64,000 bases of DNA, from contig NC_042509.1 of NCBI RefSeq assembly GCF_003054445.1, positions 1,319,545 through 1,383,544 of the forward strand. The letters are read 5' to 3'. The notes below the pieces were generated by a model. The model was not told where the DNA came from, searched no databases, and saw only the letters and a list, made by a program, of their open reading frames with translations. Source of the stretch: Pichia kudriavzevii (lineage: Eukaryota > Ascomycota > Pichiomycetes > Pichiales > Pichiaceae). Below, piece after piece: positions 44,137 to 64,000 of this stretch. Position 1 is the first letter of the stretch. Each line of letters starts with the position of its first letter. Both the position numbers and the translations under genes were made by a program.

Positions 44137-45681
44137 CTAAGCAGTTTTGTCTCTGCTTGGTTCAAAAGGCATTGCCAACGCAAGGACGGACAACGAACCA
44201 ATGATTCCACCACACACCCAGATAGGAACAGATGTTCCTGTTTGTTCTCCGTACCAATACACAACAGGTGCAAATGCTCCAGCAATCCGATCGCCAACTA
44301 AACACAAAGCAACACCTGTACCCCTGGCCTTGGTGGGGAACACTTCTGGTGTGTATGCGTATAGACATGCATAGTACACATTCATAAAGAAATACGTTGC
44401 GCTGCTGAACCCGGCATCTCCAGCAGGCGTCCTGACCGTGGTGTATCCAAAGAGGATTGCCATGGTGGATAAAGCGCCGAAGACCATGGTACCTCTCCTC
44501 CCCATTCTTGGTATTAGAATAAGCACTCCTCCGAATATCGGACCAAAGATACCGACAAAATTGGCAATGGTGGAGTTTCTATACGTGATGTATGGTGATG
44601 AACCGGTGTCTCCACCATGTGATGCAATATAGATGTAGAGGAAATTGTAAAAAACCGAATAGGAGATTCCAATAAACACCCAAGATGTGATGATCAAAAT
44701 AGTGGATCTGATAACTAATTTATCACAGAAGAGAACTTTTATATTCATTTTAGTAGAATAACATAGCTCTGTCAAACCAGTTTTGAAGTCTGATATTTTG
44801 GAGGGATCAAAATACGTGTCTTGAATTGTACCACATGCTTCTAGGTTTTCCACCGTCAGTGAACATGGACGGTTGTATTTAGCCGCAATTGTCTGGAGTT
44901 CATTAACTGCTTCCTGGTCTCTACCTGTAGAGACTAGAAACTTGGGAGTTTCTCCAAGTTGTAAGTAGACTAGACGAATGAGTGCTGCACCCATCACTAT
45001 ACCTGAGTTCACATACCAACAGTACCTCCACCCACGATTCAGACGTGATGTGCAATCTGGACTCGTAGGATCGTCGCACGAGTACGATGGTAGGAACCGC
45101 CATGCAATGAGGTTTGCAATTGTCTGTCCCACACCCCACCATGCTGCCATCGTGGTGTTCAAATATTGATATTTGGATGGTAAGAATTCAAGAAACACTG
45201 CAACGTCGGTTGCCAAGTTTCCACCTGCTGCAAGGGTTGACAGGAATAGGAAGATGCAGTACATTGCATAACTCGATGTTCCACCAGTGAAAAATCCAAA
45301 TGTCGAATTAAGTAATAGTGATAGGTTGAATGCTAGCTTACGGCCAATTAGATCTGCACCAAAACCAAACATGATGGAACCAATGATTAAATCTGCATAG
45401 AATATCTCTGTTGCAACGGGATATCCACCGCCTCTCATTTGACCATCAACATAACTTTTTACTCCCGATTGGATCATTGCCATTTGAGAATCTACCGAAT
45501 AACCAAACCTGGCAATACAGAATAACTTGAAATGAAACCAGGTAAATCCTAGTTCGTCGATGGCTTCGTTGATAATGCATATTTTTTGACTTAATACGAC
45601 ATCGCCAGTTTTGATTATTGAAATGTCTTTCTCTAAGATTTGAATTTCCTCTGTGGTAGTCTCAAATGATCCTTTCTGCAT
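44137..45681 (-). CDS. MFS transporter copy 1, with charged residues in TM1 and TM2
   Basis: Twelve-helix major facilitator of the fungal organic-anion/sugar type (SV2-like subgroup), by the loop 2-3 motif GADLIGRKLAFN, the segment DVAVFLEFLPSKYQYLNTTM, and PEVFPTKARGTG after TM10. Substrate unknown; S. cerevisiae lacks a close relative that I know of. It differs from its three paralogues at two otherwise invariant glycines: CIARFGYSV (Gly to Arg, TM1) and FYADLIIGS (Gly to Asp, TM2), each a single G-to-A change. The ATG at 45681 (MQKGSFETTTEE) aligns with the paralogues' N-termini and gives 514 residues; the frame runs on to an ATG at 45840, adding 53 unrelated residues. Possibly a decaying copy. 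Confidence 0.82.
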   Translation of the reverse strand: MQKGSFETTTEEIQILEKDISIIKTGDVVLSQKICIINEAIDELGFTWFHFKLFCIARFGYSVDSQMAMIQSGVKSYVDGQMRGGGYPVATEIFYADLIIGSIMFGFGADLIGRKLAFNLSLLLNSTFGFFTGGTSSYAMYCIFLFLSTLAAGGNLATDVAVFLEFLPSKYQYLNTTMAAWWGVGQTIANLIAWRFLPSYSCDDPTSPDCTSRLNRGWRYCWYVNSGIVMGAALIRLVYLQLGETPKFLVSTGRDQEAVNELQTIAAKYNRPCSLTVENLEACGTIQDTYFDPSKISDFKTGLTELCYSTKMNIKVLFCDKLVIRSTILIITSWVFIGISYSVFYNFLYIYIASHGGDTGSSPYITYRNSTIANFVGIFGPIFGGVLILIPRMGRRGTMVFGALSTMAILFGYTTVRTPAGDAGFSSATYFFMNVYYACLYAYTPEVFPTKARGTGVALCLVGDRIAGAFAPVVYWYGEQTGTSVPIWVCGGIIGSLSVLALAMPFEPSRDKTA

Positions 45682-45840
45682 GCTTTGATTGTATAACGAT
45701 CTTCCAAGCATAGCATTTGCAATTACCTTTTGGACGGTACAAGTAATCGACATATGTCCCAGCAGTAGCGTGTATAGCCGGATACCAAATGCTACTTGGG
45801 TGGTACTTAAAAATGGGATAACATTATATTTAATTTGCAT

Positions 45841-46253
45841 ATGCTTTAATCAAATTGGATTAGACACGTGTGTGGATTTCAATCTTAAGTGAAATTGACG
45901 AATGAGAATTTATATTGACTCATTAACACTCTTTCATGCAATATGCACAGGATTTTCTCCATTAAAGTGTTTACATATAATCAAAGGACCAATTTGGATG
46001 TTTTCAATCCGCTTCGGTTTATAGTCTCACATTATATAGGGGTGTACATGCAATTTGGTATTTTTGCACACTCGATATGTAAGAAGATTGTCTTTTTTTT
46101 TTCTTTATACGTTTCTGATCGTTCGTTAAAAGTTGCCTGGTCAGCTTCACCAGATAGTGAATGTTTGATGATAAGCACTTTTATTAAGTATAAAAAATCG
46201 GTTGCTAGAAAAAAATACACTATAGAAGAAGGATAGTTCTTGGCAAAGTGCAA
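45841..46253. other. Spacer between transporter copies 1 and 2
   Basis: AT-rich, about 410 bp, the promoter of copy 1. Holds one GATAAG at 46170-46175. No gene supported. Confidence 0.5.
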
Positions 46254-47834
46254 CTAAACAGTTCTTTGCCTACTAGGCTCAAAAGGCATTGCTAGTGTGA
46301 ATAAAGATAGAGAGCCAATAACAGCACCACACACCCAAATAGGAACCGACGTTCCAGATTTTTGGCCATACCAATAAATAACAGGCGCAAAGGAACCACC
46401 AATACGATTAGCAACCAAACAAAGAGCAACACCGGTACCTCTTGCCTTGGTAGGGAAAACTTCTGGAGTATATGCAAATAAGCAACCGTAGTATACATTA
46501 ACAAAAAAGTAGCTGGCACAGCCAAAACCAGCATCTGCTGACGGGGTTCTGACTGTAGTGTAGCCAAAGAAGATGGCCATTGATGCTAATGCTCCAAATA
46601 CCATGGTACCTCTTCTACCAACTCTTGGTATGTGAATTAGTAATCCCCCAAAAATAGGACCGAAGATACCAACAAAGTTGGCTAAAGTGGAATTCCGATA
46701 AGTTATGTAAGGAGTTGAGCCAATGTCACCACCGTGTGAAGCAATGTAAATGTATAAGAAGTTATAAAAAACAGCATATGCAACACCCATTAGAAGCCAT
46801 GAAGATATAATCAATGAAGTGGATCGAGCAACTAGTTTATTGGAGAAAAGTATCTTGCAGTTGGACTTTGTACTTTTGAATATTGATTTTAATCCCATTT
46901 TAAAATCAGAAACCTTTTCTGTGTCAAAGTATGTTTCTCCTACTTCACCGCATTCTTGTAGTTTTTCTATTGACAAAGAACAAGAACGGTTATACTTTGC
47001 TGCAATTGTCTGGAGTTCATTAACTGCTTCCTGGTCTCTACCTGTAGAGACTAGAAACTTGGGAGTTTCTCCAAGTTGTAAGTAGACTAGACGAATGAGT
47101 GCTGCACCCATCACTATACCTGAGTTCACATACCAACAGTACCTCCACCCACGATTCAGACGTGATGTGCAATCTGGACTCGTAGGATCGTCGCACGAGT
47201 ACGATGGTAGGAACCGCCATGCAATGAGGTTTGCAATTGTCTGTCCCACACCCCACCATGCTGCCATCGTGGTGTTCAAATATTGATATTTGGATGGTAA
47301 GAATTCAAGAAACACTGCAACGTCGGTTGCCAAGTTTCCACCTGCTGCAAGGGTTGACAGGAATAGAAAGATGCAGTACATTGCATAACTCGATGTTCCG
47401 CCGATGAAAAACCCAAACGCAGATGAAAGCAATAAGGACATATTGAAGGCCAATTTACGTCCTATCAAGTCAGCACCAAACCCAAAAACAATGGACCCAG
47501 TAAGCAAACCGGCATAGAATATCTCTGTGGCAATTGGATAACCACCACCTTTCATCTGACCGTCGACATAGCTTTTGACAGAAGACTGGACTATCATCAT
47601 CTGGGAGTCTACAGAATACCCAAAACCAGCAACGCAGAATAATTTGAAATGGAACCAGGTGAATCCAATCTCATCTATTGCATCGTTGATAAGACTGATC
47701 TTGTTGCTTAAATTCAAATCACCATTTTCAACCGCTGTCAAATCCTCCTCTATGTTCGGGCTTCCTAGTTCAGTATCGGTAGATGACGTTATATCATTTT
47801 TTGTTTCATCATAGGAAACTTTTTCTTCAGACAT
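46254..47834 (-). CDS. MFS transporter copy 2
   Basis: Paralogue of copy 1, 526 residues from the ATG at 47834 (MSEEKVSYDETKND). About 60 cytosolic residues precede TM1, which has the intact VAGFGYSVDSQMM. The central third (about 46.99-47.40 kb) is base-for-base identical to copy 1 over at least 360 bp, whereas the N-terminal and C-terminal thirds diverge at many silent and some coding positions. That marks the centre as recently converted. The loop 8-9 segment reads LIHIPRVGRRGTM. All family motifs are intact, so probably functional. Confidence 0.9.
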   Translation of the reverse strand: MSEEKVSYDETKNDITSSTDTELGSPNIEEDLTAVENGDLNLSNKISLINDAIDEIGFTWFHFKLFCVAGFGYSVDSQMMIVQSSVKSYVDGQMKGGGYPIATEIFYAGLLTGSIVFGFGADLIGRKLAFNMSLLLSSAFGFFIGGTSSYAMYCIFLFLSTLAAGGNLATDVAVFLEFLPSKYQYLNTTMAAWWGVGQTIANLIAWRFLPSYSCDDPTSPDCTSRLNRGWRYCWYVNSGIVMGAALIRLVYLQLGETPKFLVSTGRDQEAVNELQTIAAKYNRSCSLSIEKLQECGEVGETYFDTEKVSDFKMGLKSIFKSTKSNCKILFSNKLVARSTSLIISSWLLMGVAYAVFYNFLYIYIASHGGDIGSTPYITYRNSTLANFVGIFGPIFGGLLIHIPRVGRRGTMVFGALASMAIFFGYTTVRTPSADAGFGCASYFFVNVYYGCLFAYTPEVFPTKARGTGVALCLVANRIGGSFAPVIYWYGQKSGTSVPIWVCGAVIGSLSLFTLAMPFEPSRQRTV

Positions 47835-48608
47835 GTTAGCTATATACTTGTTGTTCTTGATAAAAAGGAAAAGCAGCAGAAGAAAGACTCAAGGGTTATA
47901 CTTCTAAACCCCGCACAGAATCGTATTCTATTCATCTTGACAGCTTTTCAGGGTGTAATGATTTTTTCTTTCCTCCAGGTAAAGAAAATTTTAACGTGAT
48001 TGTTTTTGCTTTTATGGGGAAAGCATACGTCATTTGGATATCATTGAAAAGTGAAGAGAAAAAAAAAATAATGAGAGCAGGAAAAAGCCGCACGTCACTC
48101 TAATTGAACGACTCGGCAATATGCGCACTGTCAACTATTTGGGGAAAAGAGGGCTGTACATCAAACTTTCCGTCTAGCTGAGAAGCATTTCCAAGTTGTA
48201 GATGTGATTGTAGAGACAGAGTGTTTGGTTTTCAAGAAGGTTGTGGCGTAACGGGTGATGCCGATATCCTTAAAGGCTATTAATCAACGTCCAAATTGTC
48301 CAACCAAGTGTTTTCCGCCAACAACAAGCCATTTGGTTAGGAAATAAAAAAATACACATTCAACTAAGTTTGTCTTGGCTGGCCATGCGTAATTTTACAG
48401 CTTCTTAGCAGACCATGCACAACTACTTAAATAATTATGGTCGAAGATTTCATTAGGTTGACACCAACCACTCCCATATGCTCCAGAGCTTCTATTTTCA
48501 AAATATTGTAGAGTGGCTATATAGGAAACTGCCAGGATTAATATTACACATACCAAGCTTTGTAACAAAGGTTGCAAGTACATTATGGAAAAAAAAAATT
48601 TAGAAACA
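47835..48608. other. Promoter region of transporter copy 2
   Basis: About 770 bp, AT-rich with an A-tract at 48060. One GATAAA near 47857 but no GATAAG pair of the kind seen upstream of copies 3 and 4. No RNA gene or ORF supported. Confidence 0.5.
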
Positions 48609-50183
48609 CTAGACAGATCTTTGTTTACTAGGCTCAAAAGGCATTGCCAACGCAAGGACGGACAACGAACCAATGATTCCACCACACACCCAGATAGGAA
48701 CAGATGTTCCTGTTTGTTCTCCGTACCAATACACAACAGGTGCAAATGCTCCAGCAATCCGATCGCCAACTAAACACAAAGCAACACCTGTACCCCTGGC
48801 CTTGGTGGGGAACACTTCTGGTGTGTATGCGTATAGACATGCATAGTACACATTCATAAAGAAATACGTTGCGCTGCTGAACCCGGCATCTCCAGCAGGC
48901 GTCCTGACCGTGGTGTATCCAAAGAGGATTGCCATGGTGGATAAAGCGCCGAAGACCATGGTACCTCTCCTCCCCATTCTTGGTATTAGAATAAGCACTC
49001 CTCCGAATATCGGACCAAAGATACCGACAAAATTGGCAATGGTGGAGTTTCTATACGTGATGTATGGTGATGAACCGGTGTCTCCACCATGTGATGCAAT
49101 ATAGATGTAGAGGAAATTGTAGTATACCTCGTATGCTATACCGATGAACACCCATGAAATAATAATTAAAATAGTAGATCTGATAACTAACTTGTTGCAG
49201 AAAAGGATCTTGATGTTCGTTTTCGTGGAATGGTACAACTCCTTAAGGCCCGATTGGAAACTGGATATTCTTCCCATGTTGAAGTATGTTGGCTCGATAG
49301 TACCACATGCTTCTAGGTTTTCCACCGTCAGTGAACATGGACGGTTGTATTTAGCCGCAATCGCCTGGATTGCTTCAACGGCTTCCCGGTCTCTACCTGT
49401 AGAGACAAGAAACTTGGGAGTTTCGTCGAGTTTCAAGTAGACTAGACGAATGAGTGCTGCACCCATCACTATACCTGAGTTTACATACCAACAGTACCTC
49501 CACCCACGATTCAGATGTGATGTGCAATCTGGACTCGTAGGATCGTCGCATGAGTACGATGGTAGGAACCGCCATGCAATGAGGTTTGCAATCGTCTGTC
49601 CCACACCCCACCATGCTGCCATAGATGTGTTCAAATATTGATATTTGGATGGTAAGAATTCAAGAAACACTGCAACGTCGGTTGCCAAGTTTCCACCTGA
49701 TGCAAGGGTTGACAAGAATAGGAAGATGCAGTACATTGCATAACTTGATGTTCCGCCAGTGAAAAATCCAAAAATTGCAGAAACCAAAAGTGATGAATTA
49801 AAAGCAAGCTTACGACCTATTAAATCAGCACCAAACCCAACAACAATAGAACCAACAATAAGACCAGCATAAAAAAGTTCCGAAGCTATTGGATACCCAC
49901 CGCCCTTCATTTGACCGTCAACATAACTTTTTACTCCCGATTGGATCATGGTCATTTGAGAATCTACCGAGTAACCAAACCCGGCAATACAGAATAACTT
50001 GAAATGAAACCAGGTAAATCCAATTTCATCTATTGCATCGTTGATGAGGTTGATTTTTCTACTCAACACTTCATCGCCACTCTCGACTATAGTAAGATCT
50101 TTTCTTTGACCTATGAAGCCATCTTCAAGATCCGCTGAAGATAGTTCGTGGTCAGAAACTTCAACTACTCTCTTTTCAGACAT
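48609..50183 (-). CDS. MFS transporter copy 3
   Basis: 524 residues, ATG at 50183 (MSEKRVVEVSDHELSS). The C-terminal 160 or so residues are encoded by DNA identical to copy 1 for 488 bp (48634-49121 against 44162-44649), while the adjacent segment (about 49.19-49.42 kb) instead matches copy 4 with only a couple of mismatches. TM1 is intact (CIAGFGYSVDSQMTMIQS). Unique changes include IAYEVYYNFLYIY in TM7, where copies 1 and 4 have ISYSVFYNF. GATAAG elements lie about 280 bp upstream of its start. Confidence 0.9.
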   Translation of the reverse strand: MSEKRVVEVSDHELSSADLEDGFIGQRKDLTIVESGDEVLSRKINLINDAIDEIGFTWFHFKLFCIAGFGYSVDSQMTMIQSGVKSYVDGQMKGGGYPIASELFYAGLIVGSIVVGFGADLIGRKLAFNSSLLVSAIFGFFTGGTSSYAMYCIFLFLSTLASGGNLATDVAVFLEFLPSKYQYLNTSMAAWWGVGQTIANLIAWRFLPSYSCDDPTSPDCTSHLNRGWRYCWYVNSGIVMGAALIRLVYLKLDETPKFLVSTGRDREAVEAIQAIAAKYNRPCSLTVENLEACGTIEPTYFNMGRISSFQSGLKELYHSTKTNIKILFCNKLVIRSTILIIISWVFIGIAYEVYYNFLYIYIASHGGDTGSSPYITYRNSTIANFVGIFGPIFGGVLILIPRMGRRGTMVFGALSTMAILFGYTTVRTPAGDAGFSSATYFFMNVYYACLYAYTPEVFPTKARGTGVALCLVGDRIAGAFAPVVYWYGEQTGTSVPIWVCGGIIGSLSVLALAMPFEPSKQRSV

Positions 50184-50460
50184 TGAGAGTTGCTGTCGAA
50201 ACTGCGTAGGATGACACTATTAAGGAGACCATTTAGAACTTTAAAAACAGAGTGGATGGAACAAGAGAGAACTGTACTATAGACTGTATGCCTCCAATTT
50301 ATCAGAATAAACAGTCAACTCTAGGAACACTCGGAATTGCGCTTGCATTACCCTATTCAGGTAAAAAATAAAGGCTGGATGTAAAGACTCGCCGAGGTTC
50401 TCATTAGGTTCCACTGGTGTATTGTTTTATGTCTTCGCTGCATATCTCTATTGTTCTGAG

Positions 50461-50480
50461 CTTATCGGGATTATCTTATC
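50461..50480 (-). promoter_or_regulatory. Clustered GATAAG elements upstream of transporter copy 3
   Basis: CTTATC (GATAAG on the minus strand, the gene's strand) at 50461-50466 and 50475-50480, with a further GATAA overlapping the second. Two close GATAAG sites form the classic nitrogen-responsive UAS bound by Gln3/Gat1-type GATA factors. They lie 278-297 bp upstream of the start. Confidence 0.55.
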
Positions 50481-50948
50481 CAATGAGTTGTGCATATCGC
50501 AAAAGGCGGACAATCTGTGGTTATTTTTTGATTAGAGAATTGACAATGTCGGATACAATAACAGTAGCCTTGACTATCTTCAAATTGTTGAGGGTGCGAA
50601 AAGAACGGCTTGGTTCTACCGCCTAAATAAGCATAAAAATGCTTCTGAAGTAGATATCCCGTAGAACCATTCTTGTGTTCCACCATTAGATCCTTAAAAC
50701 AGGTAGCTATGGAACAGTATTAAATAAAGATTTATGGCTTTCTGTTATGTTTTCTTCCTCTAAAGTATACGATGAATGTAATGTTTTTTTTTTCAGAGGA
50801 CTTCTGTAGGGAACCTCCTTTTACAGCTATCGTTTTTGAATTACTCTGGCTAAGAAAATAACTTGTTTACTCAGTGATTGGAGACAAATACGTTGAAGGG
50901 CTAACATCTTAACAATAAGTTTGGGCATTATATAACATCTTGGACTTT

Positions 50949-52523
50949 TTAAACAGTCCTTTGTTTACTAGGCTCAAAAGGCATTGCAAAAGCAAGGATG
51001 GACAACGAACCAATGATTCCACCACACACCCAGATAGGAACAGATGTTCCTGTTTGTTCTCCGTACCAATACACAACAGGTGCAAATGCTCCTGAAACAC
51101 GACCGGCGACTAAACATAGAGCAACACCTGTACCCCTTGCCTTGGTAGGGAACACTTCTGGTGTATATGCATATAAACATGCATAGTATATGTTAACAAA
51201 AAAATAAGTTGCACTGCTGAATCCGGCATCCCCAGCTGCTGTTCTGACCGTGGTGTATCCAAAGAGGATTGCCATGGCAGATAAAGCTCCGAATATCATT
51301 GTACCCTTTCTTCCGACCTTTGGGATGAGAATAAGGGCTCCTCCAAGAAGAGGACCAAAAATACCGACAAAATTGGCAATGGTGGAATTTCTGTAGACTA
51401 TATAAGGAGAAGAGCCGGTATCTCCTCCGTGTGCAGCAATGTAGATGTAAAGGAAATTGTAAAAAACCGAATAGGAGATTCCAATAAACACCCAAGACGT
51501 GATGATCAAAATAGTGGATCTGATAACTAACTTGTTGCAGAAAAGGATCTTGATGTTCGTTTTCGTGGAATGGTACAACTCCTTAAGGCCCGATTGGAAA
51601 CTGGATATTCTTCCCATGTTGAAGTATGTTGGCTCGATAGTACCACATGCTTCTAGTTTTTCCACCGTCAGTGAACATGGACGGTTGTATTTAGCCGCAA
51701 TCGCCTGGATTGCTTCAACGGCTTCCCGGTCTCTACCTGTAGAGACTAGAAACTTGGGAGTTTCTCCAAGCTGTAGGAAAAATAATCGAAGAAGTGCTGC
51801 ACCCATCACTATACCTGAGTTCACATACCAACAGTACCTCCACCCACGATTCAGACGTGATGTGCAATCTGGACTCGTAGGATCGTCGCACGAGTACGAT
51901 GGTAGGAACCGCCATGCAATGAGGTTTGCAATCGTCTGTCCCACACCCCACCATGCTGCCATAGATGTGTTCAAATATTGATATTTGGATGGTAAGAATT
52001 CAAGAAACACTGCAACATCTGTGGCAATATTACCACCAGCTGCAACAGTTGACAAGAATAGGAAGATACAGTACATTGCATAACTCGATGTTCCACCAGT
52101 GAAAAATCCAAATGTCGAAGTAAGTAATAGTGATAGGTTGAATGCTAGCTTACGGCCAATTAGATCTGCACCAAAACCAAACATGATGGAACCAATGATT
52201 AAACCTGCATAGAATATCTCTGTTGCAACGGGATACCCACCGCCTTTCATTTGACCGTCAACATAACTTTTCACCGATGACTGGATCATCTCCATCTGTG
52301 AATCCACCGAGTAACCAAACCCTGCAATACAGAATAACTTGAAATGAAACCACGTGAATCCAATCTCGTCTATTGCATCGTTTACGAGATTGATCTTTCT
52401 GCTTAAAACACTATCACTGCTTTCAACTATTGATAGATCTTTATTCAAATTAGGAAGGCCAGCTTCTGTATCTGAAGATGTTACTTCTTCATTTAAGACA
52501 TCATACACCACTTTTTCGGACAT
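50949..52523 (-). CDS. MFS transporter copy 4, divergent from the hydrolase
   Basis: 524 residues, ATG at 52523 (MSEKVVYDVLNEEVTS). Intact family motifs: CIAGFGYSVDSQMEMIQSS in TM1, GADLIGRKLAFN in loop 2-3, PEVFPTKARGTG after TM10. Its loop 8-9 (ALILIPKVGRKGTM) and last third differ from the other copies. Shares near-identical blocks with copy 3 (about 51.53-51.75 kb) and copy 1 (about 51.46-51.52 and 52.1-52.26 kb). It is transcribed away from the CocE-type hydrolase across a 501-bp shared promoter. Confidence 0.9.
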   Translation of the reverse strand: MSEKVVYDVLNEEVTSSDTEAGLPNLNKDLSIVESSDSVLSRKINLVNDAIDEIGFTWFHFKLFCIAGFGYSVDSQMEMIQSSVKSYVDGQMKGGGYPVATEIFYAGLIIGSIMFGFGADLIGRKLAFNLSLLLTSTFGFFTGGTSSYAMYCIFLFLSTVAAGGNIATDVAVFLEFLPSKYQYLNTSMAAWWGVGQTIANLIAWRFLPSYSCDDPTSPDCTSRLNRGWRYCWYVNSGIVMGAALLRLFFLQLGETPKFLVSTGRDREAVEAIQAIAAKYNRPCSLTVEKLEACGTIEPTYFNMGRISSFQSGLKELYHSTKTNIKILFCNKLVIRSTILIITSWVFIGISYSVFYNFLYIYIAAHGGDTGSSPYIVYRNSTIANFVGIFGPLLGGALILIPKVGRKGTMIFGALSAMAILFGYTTVRTAAGDAGFSSATYFFVNIYYACLYAYTPEVFPTKARGTGVALCLVAGRVSGAFAPVVYWYGEQTGTSVPIWVCGGIIGSLSILAFAMPFEPSKQRTV

Positions 52524-55094: not shown

Positions 55095-56413
55095 ATTTTG
55101 TAAACAATATGTAAAGCTTTGTACTAATTACAACATTAGAAGAACCATATCAGATTTAACACTTTGTCATCCAAATTATTCAGTAGTCAAGCGTTCATGT
55201 TTTCGTTCATCATAATGATCTCTTCTAATTGCAGAAGTTAAACGTGCTCTCACGTAACACATACTGCGTGCTTGACAAGAGGCGGAAAGAAAAGTGTAGT
55301 TGCATGTCTATGCATCAAACGGTGATTGCAAAATTTTCTTTTTAAATAGGCATCAACACGAAGTGAAAGTGCGACTGGATTTCCTGGCTTGAGGGTTATT
55401 TTGCAACACCTTTGCATGTGATCTTTCTTTTAAACTAGGTCTCCATTTAGACAAACGAATAACTACAGCATAGTGATTACAATTTGTAAAATGGTGTCTC
55501 AAGAGCACTATCATATGGGAAAATAGCGTCAGGAAGTTTCAATTCGTGGAATAGGTGATATCTTGACCCCGTCTTTTAAAAAGGAAATATTCAGGAAAAA
55601 GTTTATAACTGCTCATATGATTCATACAATATCACGGTATATTTATGAAGTTTTGGAATTATTCCAAGCGAAGGATTCTTTCCACTTCTAAATGATCAGG
55701 AGAGAAACTGATACTACATGCACCCTGAAATTCTAGATATAGCATATATGACTTGGCAAAGACAGACAAGACCTACTGTAACAGACATGCACAAAAGGGC
55801 AGATGAAGACTACGAAGCATAAATAGTGCCACGATATAAGCTATAGTGTCAGATTTGCAGCCACACGAAAATACAATACTAGGTCTGTAAAAGAAGGTCG
55901 TATGGCATATGGTGAGAATCCTAGTACTGCCTGTATGTAGCAGAGTAGGTGGAAGTACGATAGTAGGAGCAAGTTTGTATTGCAATATTGCATTTTTTTG
56001 ACCGCTTGAACGTTATTAGCAGAGAAAGAAGGGGGGGTTATGATACTGTAGTTAGTCGTCCATTGAAAACCAAATGAATGTTGCTTCTTGACAAACAGCC
56101 TTTGGAAGTGAGTAAAACTAAGGAATCATGGCTCGGTGCCATTGACTCTAAGTAACAAAGTGTTTCTAAGTGACCATGGGGTTTTCAAGTCTCTATAGTG
56201 CAAAATACTAGGTATCCATCACTTTGAAAAGAAAGAGGTATTCAATTCCATGACGAGAGAATTTGTCTTGGATTTAAGGCACGTGGTAAAGCTCAATAAA
56301 TAAAAAAGCTAAAATTTTAAATCCAACATGATTGCGATTATTCATATTGTACATCCTGGTATTCATGAAATTATGCACACAGTGCCATTTGGTTTCAAGC
56401 TTTGAAGGATAGA
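55095..56413. other. Gene-poor spacer, hydrolase to ACR3
   Basis: 1.3 kb of AT-rich DNA. I found no ORF above about 70 codons with a recognisable product, no tRNA and no repeat shared with the rest of the window. A G7 tract occurs near 56030. Confidence 0.6.
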
Positions 56414-57655
56414 ATGCCCCCTAGCTCGAGATACCGTCTCCTGCGTCGTTCATGGAGTGGCCTATCGCTTGCAGACAGGCTTCTTCCTATTGCCATTATT
56501 TTAGCAATTGTTCTAGGTGTTTTACTTTCTGTCTTTGTTCCCAGTTCGAGAGATAGATTCGAAGGTTCCGAAATTATGGGGGTATCGATTCCACTGGCCA
56601 TAGGGCTTATTATAATGATGGTACCTCCACTATGTAAGGTGGAATGGGAACGAATTCATGAATTAATCGTGCAAAAAAAATACATAAACCACATTATCAT
56701 ATCATTAACTCTAAACTGGATTATATGTCCGTTTCTAATGTTCGGTTTGGCCTGGTTGACATTATTCGACAAGCCGGAGTACCGTATTGGTATAATCATG
56801 ATTGGACTAGCTAGGTGTATTGCCATGGTTTTGGTGTGGAACGATATAGCTGATGGCGATACTAATTTGTGTGCAATACTAGTATTAATCAATAGCGTTT
56901 TGCAGATTGTCCTATATGCCCCCTACCAAATATTCTTTTGCTATGTGATAACAGGGGATCATCATAATATGAAGAACAGCGGTGTTTCTTATTCATTGGT
57001 TGCCAAATGTGTTGGTTTTTTTCTAGGTATACCTTTGGGATTTGGATTGTTGGTAAGACTTCTCGCTTTCTATACTATTGGTTTGAATATGTTTAAAAAG
57101 AAGGTGTTGAAGAATATATCGCCATTTTCTTTAATAGGTTTAGTATACACAATCGTTGTTATTTTTATCGAAAGAGGAAATTCATTTATAAAGGAAATCA
57201 GAACAGCCCTTCGTTGCTTTGTTCCCCTTGTCTGCTATTTTTTTATTTCTTGGATGGGTACCTTCTTCCTAGTCAGGTGGATATTTGGAAGGAAAACTCC
57301 GAACTTGGAGTTTTTCGAAACTGGGAATAACCATGACGAAATAGAAGAGGATGAAAAACAAAAGCTTTTGTGCGGTTGTGAAGAAGAGGTCTTGAATGGC
57401 TCAAGACGGATTGACGGTGTTTGTTCAGCTGATTACTCGGAAGTGGTAACACAAACTTTCACGGCGGCATCGAACAATTTTGAATTGAGTTTGGCCATTG
57501 CCATTGCAGTTTTCGGATCAGGTAGTAATCAATCCATTGCAGCAACCTTTGGCCCACTATTAGAAGTACCTATTCTATTGCTACTTTGTTTTGTGGCCCA
57601 GATTTTTAAGGCCCATTATGGCTGGCGTGACATTCCACCTTGTAATATCAACTAG
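56414..57655 (+). CDS. ARR3: Arsenite efflux transporter Acr3/Arr3
   Basis: Plasma-membrane arsenite (and antimonite) exporter of the BART superfamily. 413 residues with ten predicted helices. The family signatures are IMMVPPLCKVEWE in the TM2-3 region, LTLNWIICPFLMFGLAWL, the active-site cysteine in GLARCIAMVLVWNDIADGD, and FELSLAIAIAVFGSGSNQSIAATFGP near the end. A loop of about 55 residues rich in Glu/Asp precedes the last two helices. The first ATG is at 56414 (MPPSSRYRLLRR); the frame above begins only with TTG. The usual neighbours ARR1 and ARR2 are not in the window. Subtelomeric placement is common for arsenic-resistance genes in yeasts. Confidence 0.94.
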   Translation: MPPSSRYRLLRRSWSGLSLADRLLPIAIILAIVLGVLLSVFVPSSRDRFEGSEIMGVSIPLAIGLIIMMVPPLCKVEWERIHELIVQKKYINHIIISLTLNWIICPFLMFGLAWLTLFDKPEYRIGIIMIGLARCIAMVLVWNDIADGDTNLCAILVLINSVLQIVLYAPYQIFFCYVITGDHHNMKNSGVSYSLVAKCVGFFLGIPLGFGLLVRLLAFYTIGLNMFKKKVLKNISPFSLIGLVYTIVVIFIERGNSFIKEIRTALRCFVPLVCYFFISWMGTFFLVRWIFGRKTPNLEFFETGNNHDEIEEDEKQKLLCGCEEEVLNGSRRIDGVCSADYSEVVTQTFTAASNNFELSLAIAIAVFGSGSNQSIAATFGPLLEVPILLLLCFVAQIFKAHYGWRDIPPCNIN

Positions 57656-59293: not shown

Positions 59294-60481
59294 TTAGGCA
59301 AAAGTTTTATATGCCTCAGTTTCAAACTCGCCAAAGGCCTGTAAACTTGATTTATCATAGAAAGGGAACAACTGTGTTGCAAAGAAACCAGCAATGCCTT
59401 TGTTGACGTCAATCCAGTAGTACAAGTTTGCCAATCCAGCCCAATTGAAAGAGTTTGCTGATCTTCCTGTTGGAAGCTCATCACCGGTTTTGTGGAAGCT
59501 TGCGGTCCAGCCCTGTTTTTCAAACAAGTCAAAATAGTCGACATAGTTTGATACATCAGGTTGAGACACTTCCAAAGTCGATTCGATCTTGACTCCCTCT
59601 GGCATCAAATTACTGAAAGAGTACTTTTGGATAGTCTCTGGCTTTAAAATAACAGCTCCTGTTTGTGGAGACTTTCCTTCGTGCAGAAATATTTCTAAGA
59701 ACTTCATGTAGTCACTGACTTTACCCCAACAGCCATGGCCACCAGCATGGAATTTAGGCTTTTTGACGTATGCATTCTCAAGCACCTGATAATCAGTAGG
59801 CCCTACTCTTTGATGAAGTTGGGCTTGTTGTTCAAATTGTTCAGGGAATCGTTCAAATGTCAACGAATTAGCTTCCAAAGGCCCAAAGATGTTTTTCTTG
59901 CAATACGCATCCAAGGTCAAACCGGAAACATTTTCAACGACTTTTCCAGCCCAGTCAATGTTAACACCGTAATGGAATTTTGTACCAGGCTCGTAAATGA
60001 AGGGTGTGTTGAAATGTTCCCAGGATGATTTTAGGATGTCACCGTTTCCCGTGCTCTTTAGATAGTCTGCATATTTATGACTGAAAAATGAGTATGAAAA
60101 CCCAGCAGTGTGTGTTAGCAAGTTTCGAAGGGTTGGTTTTTTGGTTGGTGTAACCAAGATAGGCTTGCCTTCATCATCGACCCCTGTCATCAACTTTGTA
60201 TCTTTGATTTCTGGAATGTATTTTTCCACTGGGTCGTCAATGGAGGTTATTTTACCGGATTCAAGCAGTTGCAGCAAAGCAGTGGTAGTCAAGGCTTTGG
60301 AAGTGGAGAATAATTTGACGACAGTTTCCTCATCTGCATGAGAGGATTCTTCGTCAACTCTTTTGAAGCCATAACCATTGTTATACACCAAGCCTTTGTC
60401 TCTGGTGACAACTGCACCAATGGCCAGAGGCAGTTGTTTTGAAGTTGTGTATTTTTCAAGAATATTGTCGATAGCAATCAT
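59294..60481 (-). CDS. Class C beta-lactamase-fold serine hydrolase (esterase/LovD-like)
   Basis: 395-residue member of the beta-lactamase/transpeptidase-like family (EstB, LovD, LACTB groups). The catalytic SxxK motif is STSK (Ser59, Lys62), in FSTSKALTTTALLQLLESG. The second motif Tyr is Tyr171 in KFHYGVNIDWAG. PTLRNLLTHTAGFSY is the standard structural segment, and a Gly-rich HAGGHGCWGKVSDYMKF replaces the KTG box. No signal peptide, so most likely an intracellular esterase or acyltransferase, not an antibiotic-resistance enzyme. The ATG at 60481 (MIAIDNILEKYTTSK) is clear. It stands alone in the subtelomere. Confidence 0.88.
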   Translation of the reverse strand: MIAIDNILEKYTTSKQLPLAIGAVVTRDKGLVYNNGYGFKRVDEESSHADEETVVKLFSTSKALTTTALLQLLESGKITSIDDPVEKYIPEIKDTKLMTGVDDEGKPILVTPTKKPTLRNLLTHTAGFSYSFFSHKYADYLKSTGNGDILKSSWEHFNTPFIYEPGTKFHYGVNIDWAGKVVENVSGLTLDAYCKKNIFGPLEANSLTFERFPEQFEQQAQLHQRVGPTDYQVLENAYVKKPKFHAGGHGCWGKVSDYMKFLEIFLHEGKSPQTGAVILKPETIQKYSFSNLMPEGVKIESTLEVSQPDVSNYVDYFDLFEKQGWTASFHKTGDELPTGRSANSFNWAGLANLYYWIDVNKGIAGFFATQLFPFYDKSSLQAFGEFETEAYKTFA

Positions 60482-62200
60482 AATTACTAGTGTTGGAATA
60501 AGGTTTTTTGTTGTCGAACGACTTACTTTGCTAACTCCAGCTACTCAAAGGTTAGTGGGAACATCACCTCTATTTATCCTTTAATCCAGTATACTTGGAA
60601 TGGGTACATCAATACATGCAATGCGGGGGGATTGATCCTGTTCCGAGAATTTTCATTGCGACCTCCAACTACCAGATTGGTTTCCCTGGTGTTTTTCATT
60701 CAATCATTCCAGTGCTTAATAATTAACCGCATATTGCTGCTCGATAACCTCTTTTAAAGTTCTCCGCATTGATCAACGAAAATTGCTGCACGCGGATAAC
60801 GGTGCACCAGATGAGGGGTTTCACACCCCCACCCCCGAAACGGGAATGACTTTTCTTTCCCCCACTCGTCTCGATATAGTAGGAAAGACAACGACTCTAC
60901 AGCTACACGGGGTTATACCGGTTCATTGAAAGAGCACCCGGAGCTTGCAAGAGTGTCAGAATTATACCACTTTCCCATGTAAATGAGAAAATATTCACAA
61001 TAATGATTTTTATTGCTAAGGAGTGCAAAGTTGAGGATGTGTGTGTAGGTTGGTATCAGCACAAACTTTTCATTCGGACTTACAGAAACTATCTGTACCC
61101 ATTATGGCAATTATCCAACGTGGCGATGTAACTCCAGTAAAAATTTGTGTGTGACTTAGTTCCAAGCTCTCTGAAAACATTTTAGAATGATCCTATTTTG
61201 AGAAAAGAGAATGCTTGACCATAAATAAAAGCAACAAAACTGCCGAAAATTCCTTTGTTTTTGCTAGTTCAGCAATAGAAGCTTGCTAAAGACACGCATA
61301 ATTTAAATTCCCCAATATTGTACATGTGGAAAGCTCAGTAACGTGTTTGTGGCAACTAAGATCTAATTGTTATTACGGCGCAAGCCAAAGTAAATGAAAT
61401 TAATTGAGACGCCAAATTGGCATGTTTATGGTGTTATTTCAAGATTGGCTCGTTCCCACCAAACACTTCAAACTGTATATTCATCGACAGTTTTGGCTTC
61501 CAGGAGCGTTATGTTAGTGGGAGCGGATTCCAATTTATGCAAAGAAAGTTGAAAACTCAAAATAATAGATAATATCATCCAATATTCACAACGACCAGAG
61601 CTTCATGCTGCCTCTTTCATACCGAACATCTCCATAAATTTTGTAATAGGTAGTGTGTATCAAAAGAAGTGTTTGTCGTTCTTTATATTCTCCGGGACGA
61701 TGCTGGAAAGACGGGAGGTGACATCCTACGTAGAACTTTTGAATTTGTTAGACTATGTGGGTCTTCTGAAACATTCTCTTAATGTTGCCTTGGAATCTCT
61801 CACCGAAAATCATTTTACAGATATACTTTCATGGAGTTTACTTTTCTCTTCCACACTGAGCTTATCCTACTCACGTTAATATTCCAGTTTTCTGCAACGC
61901 TCTATGGCACTTCACAAGTTAACGAGACCATCGTCTTTTCCAGAGTTGTTAATTGTAAATGACAAGACTTTGCAGCTTTCCCATAAGTGTACTTTCGTCC
62001 GGGTATATGTGATTCGTTGTAGGGGCGAGGCGCGTTAGAGTATGAGTTTGAATTTTGAATCTTAGCTTGGGGAGCTGACTGTCAATAATGCAAAAAATGT
62101 CTACTGTGTACCTGTTCAAAGCTCTGCAAATATAGGCTTTAATAAGGACCTTGAAACTTTAGTATTATGTTGCACCAAATAATGGATAAATAAAATTTCT
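60482..62200. other. Long subtelomeric spacer
   Basis: 1.7 kb without a supported gene. Near the hydrolase promoter there is an AGGGG stress-element pentamer at 60814-60818 and a C-rich ACCCCCACCCCC stretch at 60825-60836. A 74-codon frame at 61655-61879 has no recognisable product. Confidence 0.6.
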
Positions 62201-62209
62201 ATTTCTTTG

Positions 62210-62713
62210 ATTCTTTCACAAGACTCTCCTTTGTGGAAACTAATCGTTGATGGTTTCAAAGACGATGAAACTTTCGATACCTCCGTTGATTGTATGATTA
62301 CCATCGTGAACCAGATTGATGCTTTCGACAATCCAGACGATAATCTACCGTTGGTTCAGATTGTGTACTATGAACCTGTTGCTCTCCGTCTGATGATTCA
62401 GGAACACTGGGAAGATCCGATAGTTATCGAACGTTTGGCCAAGTTATATGCGTCTGCAGGTGAAGCTTGACATACACTCATTGTGAAAGATCCTAGTAAT
62501 TTCCTAGTTTTGATTGAAAGCGTTCTGCAAAGATCAAATTATTCTGAGGACTTGGACATTGTCAAGTACACATTCAAGTTTTGATATGAAATGAAGTCCA
62601 TTTTGGCCCTACCCACTTTCAAAGATTCTAAAGTCAACTTTTAACCAATTTATATTAAACTGACCGAAATTTTGATTGAGCACTTGAAGTACCCATTAGT
62701 CATTTAAGGGTTG
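62210..62713 (+). pseudogene. Decayed fragment of an MTR10/transportin-SR-type karyopherin
   Basis: One reading frame continues for about 500 bp with no frameshift but four stops: TGA at 62468 and 62582, TAA at 62642 and 62705. The translation matches the Mtr10/TNPO3 importin-beta family: PLWKLIVDGFKDDETFDTSV, then CMITIV; further on GEA-stop-HTLIVKDPSNF and YTFKF-stop-YEMKSILALP. Human TNPO3 has FNFWY at the last position, so the two TGA stops most likely replace Trp (TGG). No N-terminal or C-terminal remainder is visible. The family imports SR-type mRNA-binding proteins; a functional copy is presumably elsewhere in the genome. Family assignment is from memory of the pattern, not a search. 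Confidence 0.7.
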
Positions 62714-62982
62714 TATGTCGAGGTGGGGTTTCCCATGTATGCTAACAGCAGAACAGAAATTAAAGAGCACATCCGGTTAAACTTGAGTCTGGCTAAACTG
62801 CTACAGCGCTTACTATGTGGTTTATGGAGGAAGCTAGAGTTGGTAATGGATAGGAGAAATGACTGGAGTCTGTCTGGATGTTCAGCATATTGGTTCTATT
62901 TGCATATATTCCTGCAAGCATTGTCCGACATATTCAGAATTCGTGTGGTTAGTAGCGATACCTGGTCTCTGTTATCAAGCAG

Positions 62983-63387
62983 AGGCAATGCGAGAACAAA
63001 AAGTCGATCTGTGGGGGCACACCATGAAACTTGAAGTCCATACCACACCCAGCAATAATGTGATTTCCAATTAGTTCTGCTGGCGGTTCTCGAACCAGTG
63101 CCGATTGGTTTTTTACGCGGTGTCTTTTTCCACTGGACCAAGAGCGCGAGCAATTTTTTTCCAAAATTGTGGGAGACCTCATCAGCGGATTTTGGGTACT
63201 CTGTTACTGGTTGTTTTAGTTTGCTGGTTGTTATTTGCACTCCAGCTATCCGTTTGTATTGACCAAGGAACTATCTTTCATCTAATATTCATATTTCTGA
63301 CAAATTATATTTGGGGAGTGTTTTTTGTTCAAAAACGTTCAGCAAAAGTTTTCATGCAAAAATTAGAAGAAAGTAGAAAAATAATTA
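62983..63387 (+). repeat. Subtelomeric dispersed element, copy B
   Basis: Direct copy of 57843-58236. Over the best 200 bp only scattered substitutions separate the two. Minus-strand A-box-like TGGTCCAGTGG fits the TRGYNNARNNG consensus exactly, and GGTTCGAGAACC resembles a B-box with one extra base; the starts of the two boxes are 44 bp apart, as in tRNA genes. No cloverleaf forms. A minus-strand open frame through it (62896-63240) is interrupted in copy A, so coding is unlikely. Confidence 0.8.
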
Positions 63388-63607
63388 ATAATTTATTAGT
63401 TGAAGTTTGATCTTTTAGAATTCATCTGTAAGAAATCATGAAGAAAATGATCAGAGGAATTTGTTTCCAACATTAGTGTATCTACAACTGCTATCGCCAA
63501 AGTAGTGTTCTTTCAAACCAGGTAGAGTTATTATTACAGGGAATTTGTATCCAACATGAAACATGTAATTTCACTATATTATGAGCCTACAACAGATACC
63601 CCTCGAG

Positions 63608-63720
63608 AAACAATATGAACTAGGTAATTAAGAAGTCAGTCTATTAAATAAAAAAGCAAGTCCATTAGTGACAATGAGGCTAAATGGATTTAACACGGCA
63701 AACTAGGAGAATTGAACTAG
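63608..63720 (+). repeat. Degenerate telomere-repeat fragments at the subtelomere junction
   Basis: ACAATATGAACTAGG at 63610-63624 is 15 bases of the telomeric unit standing alone. Around 63700-63720, AACTAGGAG and GAACTAG, again parts of the unit, lead directly into the perfect array. Confidence 0.75.
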
Positions 63721-64000
63721 GTGTGTTACAATATGAACTAGGAGCGAGGTGTGTTACAATATGAACTAGGAGCGAGGTGTGTTACAATATGAACTAGGAG
63801 CGAGGTGTGTTACAATATGAACTAGGAGCGAGGTGTGTTACAATATGAACTAGGAGCGAGGTGTGTTACAATATGAACTAGGAGCGAGGTGTGTTACAAT
63901 ATGAACTAGGAGCGAGGTGTGTTACAATATGAACTAGGAGCGAGGTGTGTTACAATATGAACTAGGAGCGAGGTGTGTTACAATATGAACTAGGAGCGAG
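63721..64000 (+). repeat. Telomere: ten perfect copies of a 28-bp repeat
   Basis: Exactly 280 bp made of ten identical 28-bp units. Each unit begins GTGTGTTACAATATG and ends in ACTAGGAGCGAG, with no base lost at the junctions. The plus strand has nine G and three C per unit, so the G-rich strand runs 5' to 3' toward the right end, as a telomere should. The joined units create GGTGTGTTAC, with the GGTGT core seen in other yeasts with long telomeric repeats. The window stops at a unit boundary; the true array may be longer. Confidence 0.9.

Follow-up and report, generated by a model that had tools for sequence, protein, structure and literature searches.

A ten-unit array of a 28-nt sequence at the end of a yeast DNA window matches the published telomeric repeat of Pichia kudriavzevii

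The window considered here, the whole 64,000-nucleotide stretch of DNA that was analysed, ends in ten identical copies of a 28-nt unit that has already been published for Pichia kudriavzevii. Pichia kudriavzevii, also known as Candida krusei and Issatchenkia orientalis, belongs to the family Pichiaceae. Because the unit is identical to the published sequences, the feature is the known telomere repeat of this species, and the window is therefore very probably one of its chromosome ends. An earlier note, made from the letters alone, had read the array as telomeric, which is very probably right, and had presented the unit as longer than those its author knew, which is not supported as a novelty, and as sharing only a GGTGT core with them, which is too weak a statement. 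The finding is thus real but not new: publication of the repeat goes back to 2017, and the array confirms published work while marking the window as a probable P. kudriavzevii chromosome end.

The array and its published counterpart

The final 280 bases of the window (63721–64000) consist of GTGTGTTACAATATGAACTAGGAGCGAG repeated ten times, with all copies identical in an exact sequence check, and the identity at period 28 also takes in the two bases to the left, that is, from 63719. Tandem Repeats Finder describes the same array with a period of 28, 10.1 copies, 100% matches, and a score of 564, the highest among its 15 rows for the window. The units are arranged head-to-tail in tandem, and the array reaches the last base of the window. 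The plus strand of the array contains 90 G and 30 C per 280 bases, so the G-rich strand runs 5′ to 3′ towards the window end, although the G-richness of this strand is only moderate. The exact check, the Tandem Repeats Finder result, and the base counts together confirm the earlier description of ten perfect 28-bp units with the G-rich strand pointing outward. Coordinates of this and other features are given in Table 1.

A script comparison of all 28 letters showed that rotation alone turns the array unit exactly into the published TTACAATATGAACTAGGAGCGAGGTGTG, and that rotation of its reverse complement gives exactly the published ATTGTAACACACCTCGCTCCTAGTTCAT. In the excerpts of the papers concerned, ATTGTAACACACCTCGCTCCTAGTTCAT is a candidate telomeric repeat found at five scaffold ends of Candida krusei 81-B-5 (PMC5592916, G3 2017), and TTACAATATGAACTAGGAGCGAGGTGTG, described as long compared with the repeats of other yeasts, is found in CBS573 on six chromosome ends out of ten (2L, 3L, 4L, 4R, 5L, and 5R; PMC6053246, PLoS Pathogens 2018). 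For the other four ends of CBS573, rDNA was found on three and inferred for the fourth (PMC6053246). A 2025 genome announcement for a kombucha isolate quotes, in its excerpted text, a string identical to the CBS573 repeat (PMC12424327), and the excerpts of PMC6692504 contain nothing further on the P. kudriavzevii 28-nt repeat. A search for exact matches to the 28-nt unit gave none in bacterial and archaeal contigs and none in viral contigs, a result that is neutral because the sequence is from yeast.

Table 1. Positions, strands, and sources of the features discussed in the text
Feature	Position	Strand	Basis
Very probable telomeric array, ten perfect 28-nt units plus two periodic bases	63719..64000	+	Tandem Repeats Finder, exact check, identity with published unit
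12-bp Rap1-type site GGAGCGAGGTGT, nine copies, one per 28 bp, starts 63741, 63769, ... 63965	63741..63976	+	Pattern scan
Junction half-unit TGAACTAGG, directly into TGTGTTAC...	63713..63721	+	Read from sequence
Partial unit AACTAGGAG, 9 nt	63701..63709	+	Exact-match scan
Partial unit ACAATATGAACTAGG, 15 nt	63610..63624	+	Longest unit match outside array
Beta-lactamase family protein	59294–60481		Pfam
SBF-family transporter (bile acid symporter type)	56414–57655		Pfam

We hold it to be highly probable that the array is a chromosome-arm telomere of P. kudriavzevii, one that would be made by telomerase and coated by Rap1. The telomeric reading is supported because the published ends of two C. 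krusei strains, namely the five scaffold ends and the six CBS573 chromosome ends, carry the identical 28-mer. With these results, the authors of the two papers supplied the comparison of chromosome ends that the earlier note had asked for. The repeats do reach the last base of the window, which may not be the end of the record, and to this extent they could belong to an internal minisatellite or an interstitial telomere-like array that was cut by chance at the window boundary. However, three isolates have the identical 28-mer at scaffold or chromosome ends (excerpts of PMC5592916, PMC6053246, and PMC12424327), the array is uniform in all its units and has its G-rich strand facing outward, and the outermost 3.5 kb of the window is without an ATG-started ORF of at least 150 amino acids; against these observations, we give an interstitial array hardly any credence. 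That the array is instead the telomere of another, closely related Pichia species with an identical 28-bp repeat seems to us improbable. In a single comparison, the oligonucleotide described for a putative P. membranifaciens repeat (excerpts of PMC6510891) and the canonical array have no more than 8 consecutive nucleotides in common, and repeats can therefore differ within the genus.

An assembly artefact was also considered and was rejected because the identical unit recurs in separately made assemblies, although the number of units may still be inexact.

Telomerase RNA and Rap1 sites

From established telomere biology, we infer that telomerase synthesized the P. kudriavzevii array, with an RNA template from which the enzyme would add copies of the 28-nt unit to the chromosome end. 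The template predicted by the earlier note would hold at least one full complementary unit with a few bases of overlap. In the window sequence outside the array, which was scanned for an interstitial template copy, C-strand matches to the unit reach at most 11 nt (56341–56351). The longest unit match on either strand was likewise 11 nt in 80 of 200 Markov sequences, which puts this length at chance level, and there is therefore no copy of a full-unit template elsewhere in the window. An Rfam scan of the window returned no matches; nor did a tRNA scan, which was run in a bacterial setting that may miss intron-containing yeast tRNAs. In the excerpts of the open-access literature searched, we found no description of the P. 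kudriavzevii telomerase RNA, and the only telomerase RNA named in the excerpts of PMC6510891, besides general remarks and references, is that of Hansenula polymorpha. The 28-nt unit provides a query for the P. kudriavzevii molecule.

Judged by sequence, each unit has a Rap1 recognition site: both GGAGCGAGGTGT and the sequence of the 24-nt PICKU oligonucleotide, which is a piece of the unit, occur nine times in the array. We took GGAGCGAGGTGT to be the 12-bp core of PICKU on the basis of its one mismatch to the quoted motif GGTGYGAGGWGT. A pattern scan of the whole window for exact GGTGYGAGGWGT and two other Rap1 motifs gave no matches. The excerpts of PMC6510891, in which the P. kudriavzevii repeat is termed putative, place the 12-bp core of PICKU one letter away from GGTGYGAGGWGT and report in vitro binding of PICKU by Rap1B of H. 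polymorpha, a related yeast, at an apparent Kd of 0.27 ± 0.08 nM. Binding of PICKU by HpRap1A was absent; HpRap1A prefers the C. albicans oligonucleotide, whereas the P. kudriavzevii oligonucleotide is bound by HpRap1B only (PMC6510891). Because HpRap1B binds the 24-nt oligonucleotide in vitro and the 12-bp core is a single letter from a Rap1 motif, the claim that the unit has only a GGTGT core in common with the Candida and Kluyveromyces repeats was too weak.

The presence of a Rap1-type site in each unit leads us to propose that a Rap1 protein coats the array and that this protein, by analogy, would be the Rap1B paralogue of methylotrophic yeasts. Every 28-nt unit would supply one such binding site, and the resulting coat could protect the chromosome end and control the length of the array. 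Binding by Rap1B in P. kudriavzevii itself is what we infer from the H. polymorpha results.

Partial units at the inner boundary

Just inside the array, on the same strand, lie three partial units (Table 1). No match of 15 nt arose in 200 sequences generated from a first-order Markov model of the window body, in which the longest match was 14 nt, or in 5000 Markov sequences of 130 bp. The occurrence of at least two matches of at least 8 nt, as in the last 130 bp, was seen in 0.5% of these 130-bp sequences. The 9-nt partial units are weak on their own because there are 11 other matches of 9–11 nt elsewhere in the window. At the junction itself, TGAACTAGGTGTG is without the AGGAGCG (7 nt) that stands between two copies of AGG, relative to the canonical unit.

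In a post hoc comparison, the junction unit and the putative P. membranifaciens oligonucleotide, PICME, were found to have 12 nt in common, GAACTAGGTGTG, whereas PICME and the canonical unit have 8 nt in common, GAACTAGG. Of 2000 letter-shuffled oligonucleotides, 31 have at least 8 nt in common with three canonical units. PICME is read here as P. membranifaciens from the abbreviation used in the excerpts of PMC6510891. In PICME, ACTAGG adjoins TGTG, whereas the canonical unit has AGCGAGG between them, and the rest of the oligonucleotide differs. An open-access text search of the telomere literature for the junction 12-mer found it only in PMC6510891, and the excerpts of PMC5592916, PMC6053246, and PMC12424327 make no mention of partial units inside the array.

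On one reading of these observations, the proximal boundary keeps the repeat in an earlier state: the unit would have been lengthened to 28 bp by the insertion of 7 nt, and the partial units in 63610–63709 would be fossils of that history. We regard this reading as unlikely, and the junction form, observed here at one probable chromosome end, may instead reflect simple slippage from one AGG copy within the unit to the other. If the insertion reading were true, the telomerase RNA template would have gained the 7 nt between AGG copies, and the Rap1 site would have changed from one that starts with GGTGT to one that ends with it. Proximal partial units of this kind could help to trace change in long yeast telomere repeats.

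Neighbouring genes and the repeats of other yeasts

The genes of the window, as predicted from sequence, fit an ascomycete yeast; the assignment to P. kudriavzevii draws mainly on the repeat. Among 12 reading frames submitted to Pfam are an STE2-type receptor, a Gcd10-family protein, and a fungal zinc-cluster regulator, together with an acetylglutamate kinase fused to an N-acetylglutamyl-phosphate reductase. PMC6053246, consulted to place the window by its genes, mentions neither STE2 nor ARG5. The long ORFs read through in the standard code, with 55 occurrences of CTG across ten of them, which is not diagnostic of the species. The SBF-family transporter and the beta-lactamase family protein (Table 1) are the two outermost ORFs of at least 150 amino acids. 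Between the latter and the array (60482–63718, 3.2 kb), there is no ATG-started ORF of this length, and the ORF-poor character of the outermost 3.5 kb is compatible with a subtelomere.

Two further features of the window were observed. On the plus strand, in the gap that separates the outermost long ORF from the array, 62207–62700 looks like a degenerate coding frame interrupted by several in-frame stops, and it may resemble a nuclear import receptor. For its open portion (62207–62467), Pfam gives a single, sub-threshold match (E = 0.046), and the 27 rows from PDB sequences include nothing convincing, the best E value being 0.21. Farther inward on the minus strand, 44137–52523 holds four successive, similar transporter-like ORFs of 567, 526, 524, and 524 amino acids. 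These have long near-identical stretches in common, as judged by eye, which suggests recent amplification or gene conversion; the two of the four that were scanned with Pfam both match MFS_1.

The telomere units of Candida albicans and Kluyveromyces lactis are homogeneous. At 28 bp, the array unit is at the long end of yeast telomere units, yet it is not unique. The excerpts consulted give 23 nt for the C. albicans oligonucleotide (PMC6510891) and 25 nt for the K. lactis unit (PMC8211666), so these units are also long, but they are shorter than the array unit and have other sequences. Units of 28 nt have been reported for Tetrapisispora (excerpts of PMC8211666), a member of another family, the Saccharomycetaceae, that is likened to the array by length alone. 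Because the repeat was published in 2017 and Tetrapisispora has 28-nt units as well, the length that the earlier note had remarked on is not supported as a novelty. The closest counterpart is the published repeat of P. kudriavzevii and C. krusei itself: in the excerpted reports, it differs from the array unit in no letter, and its location is given as terminal.
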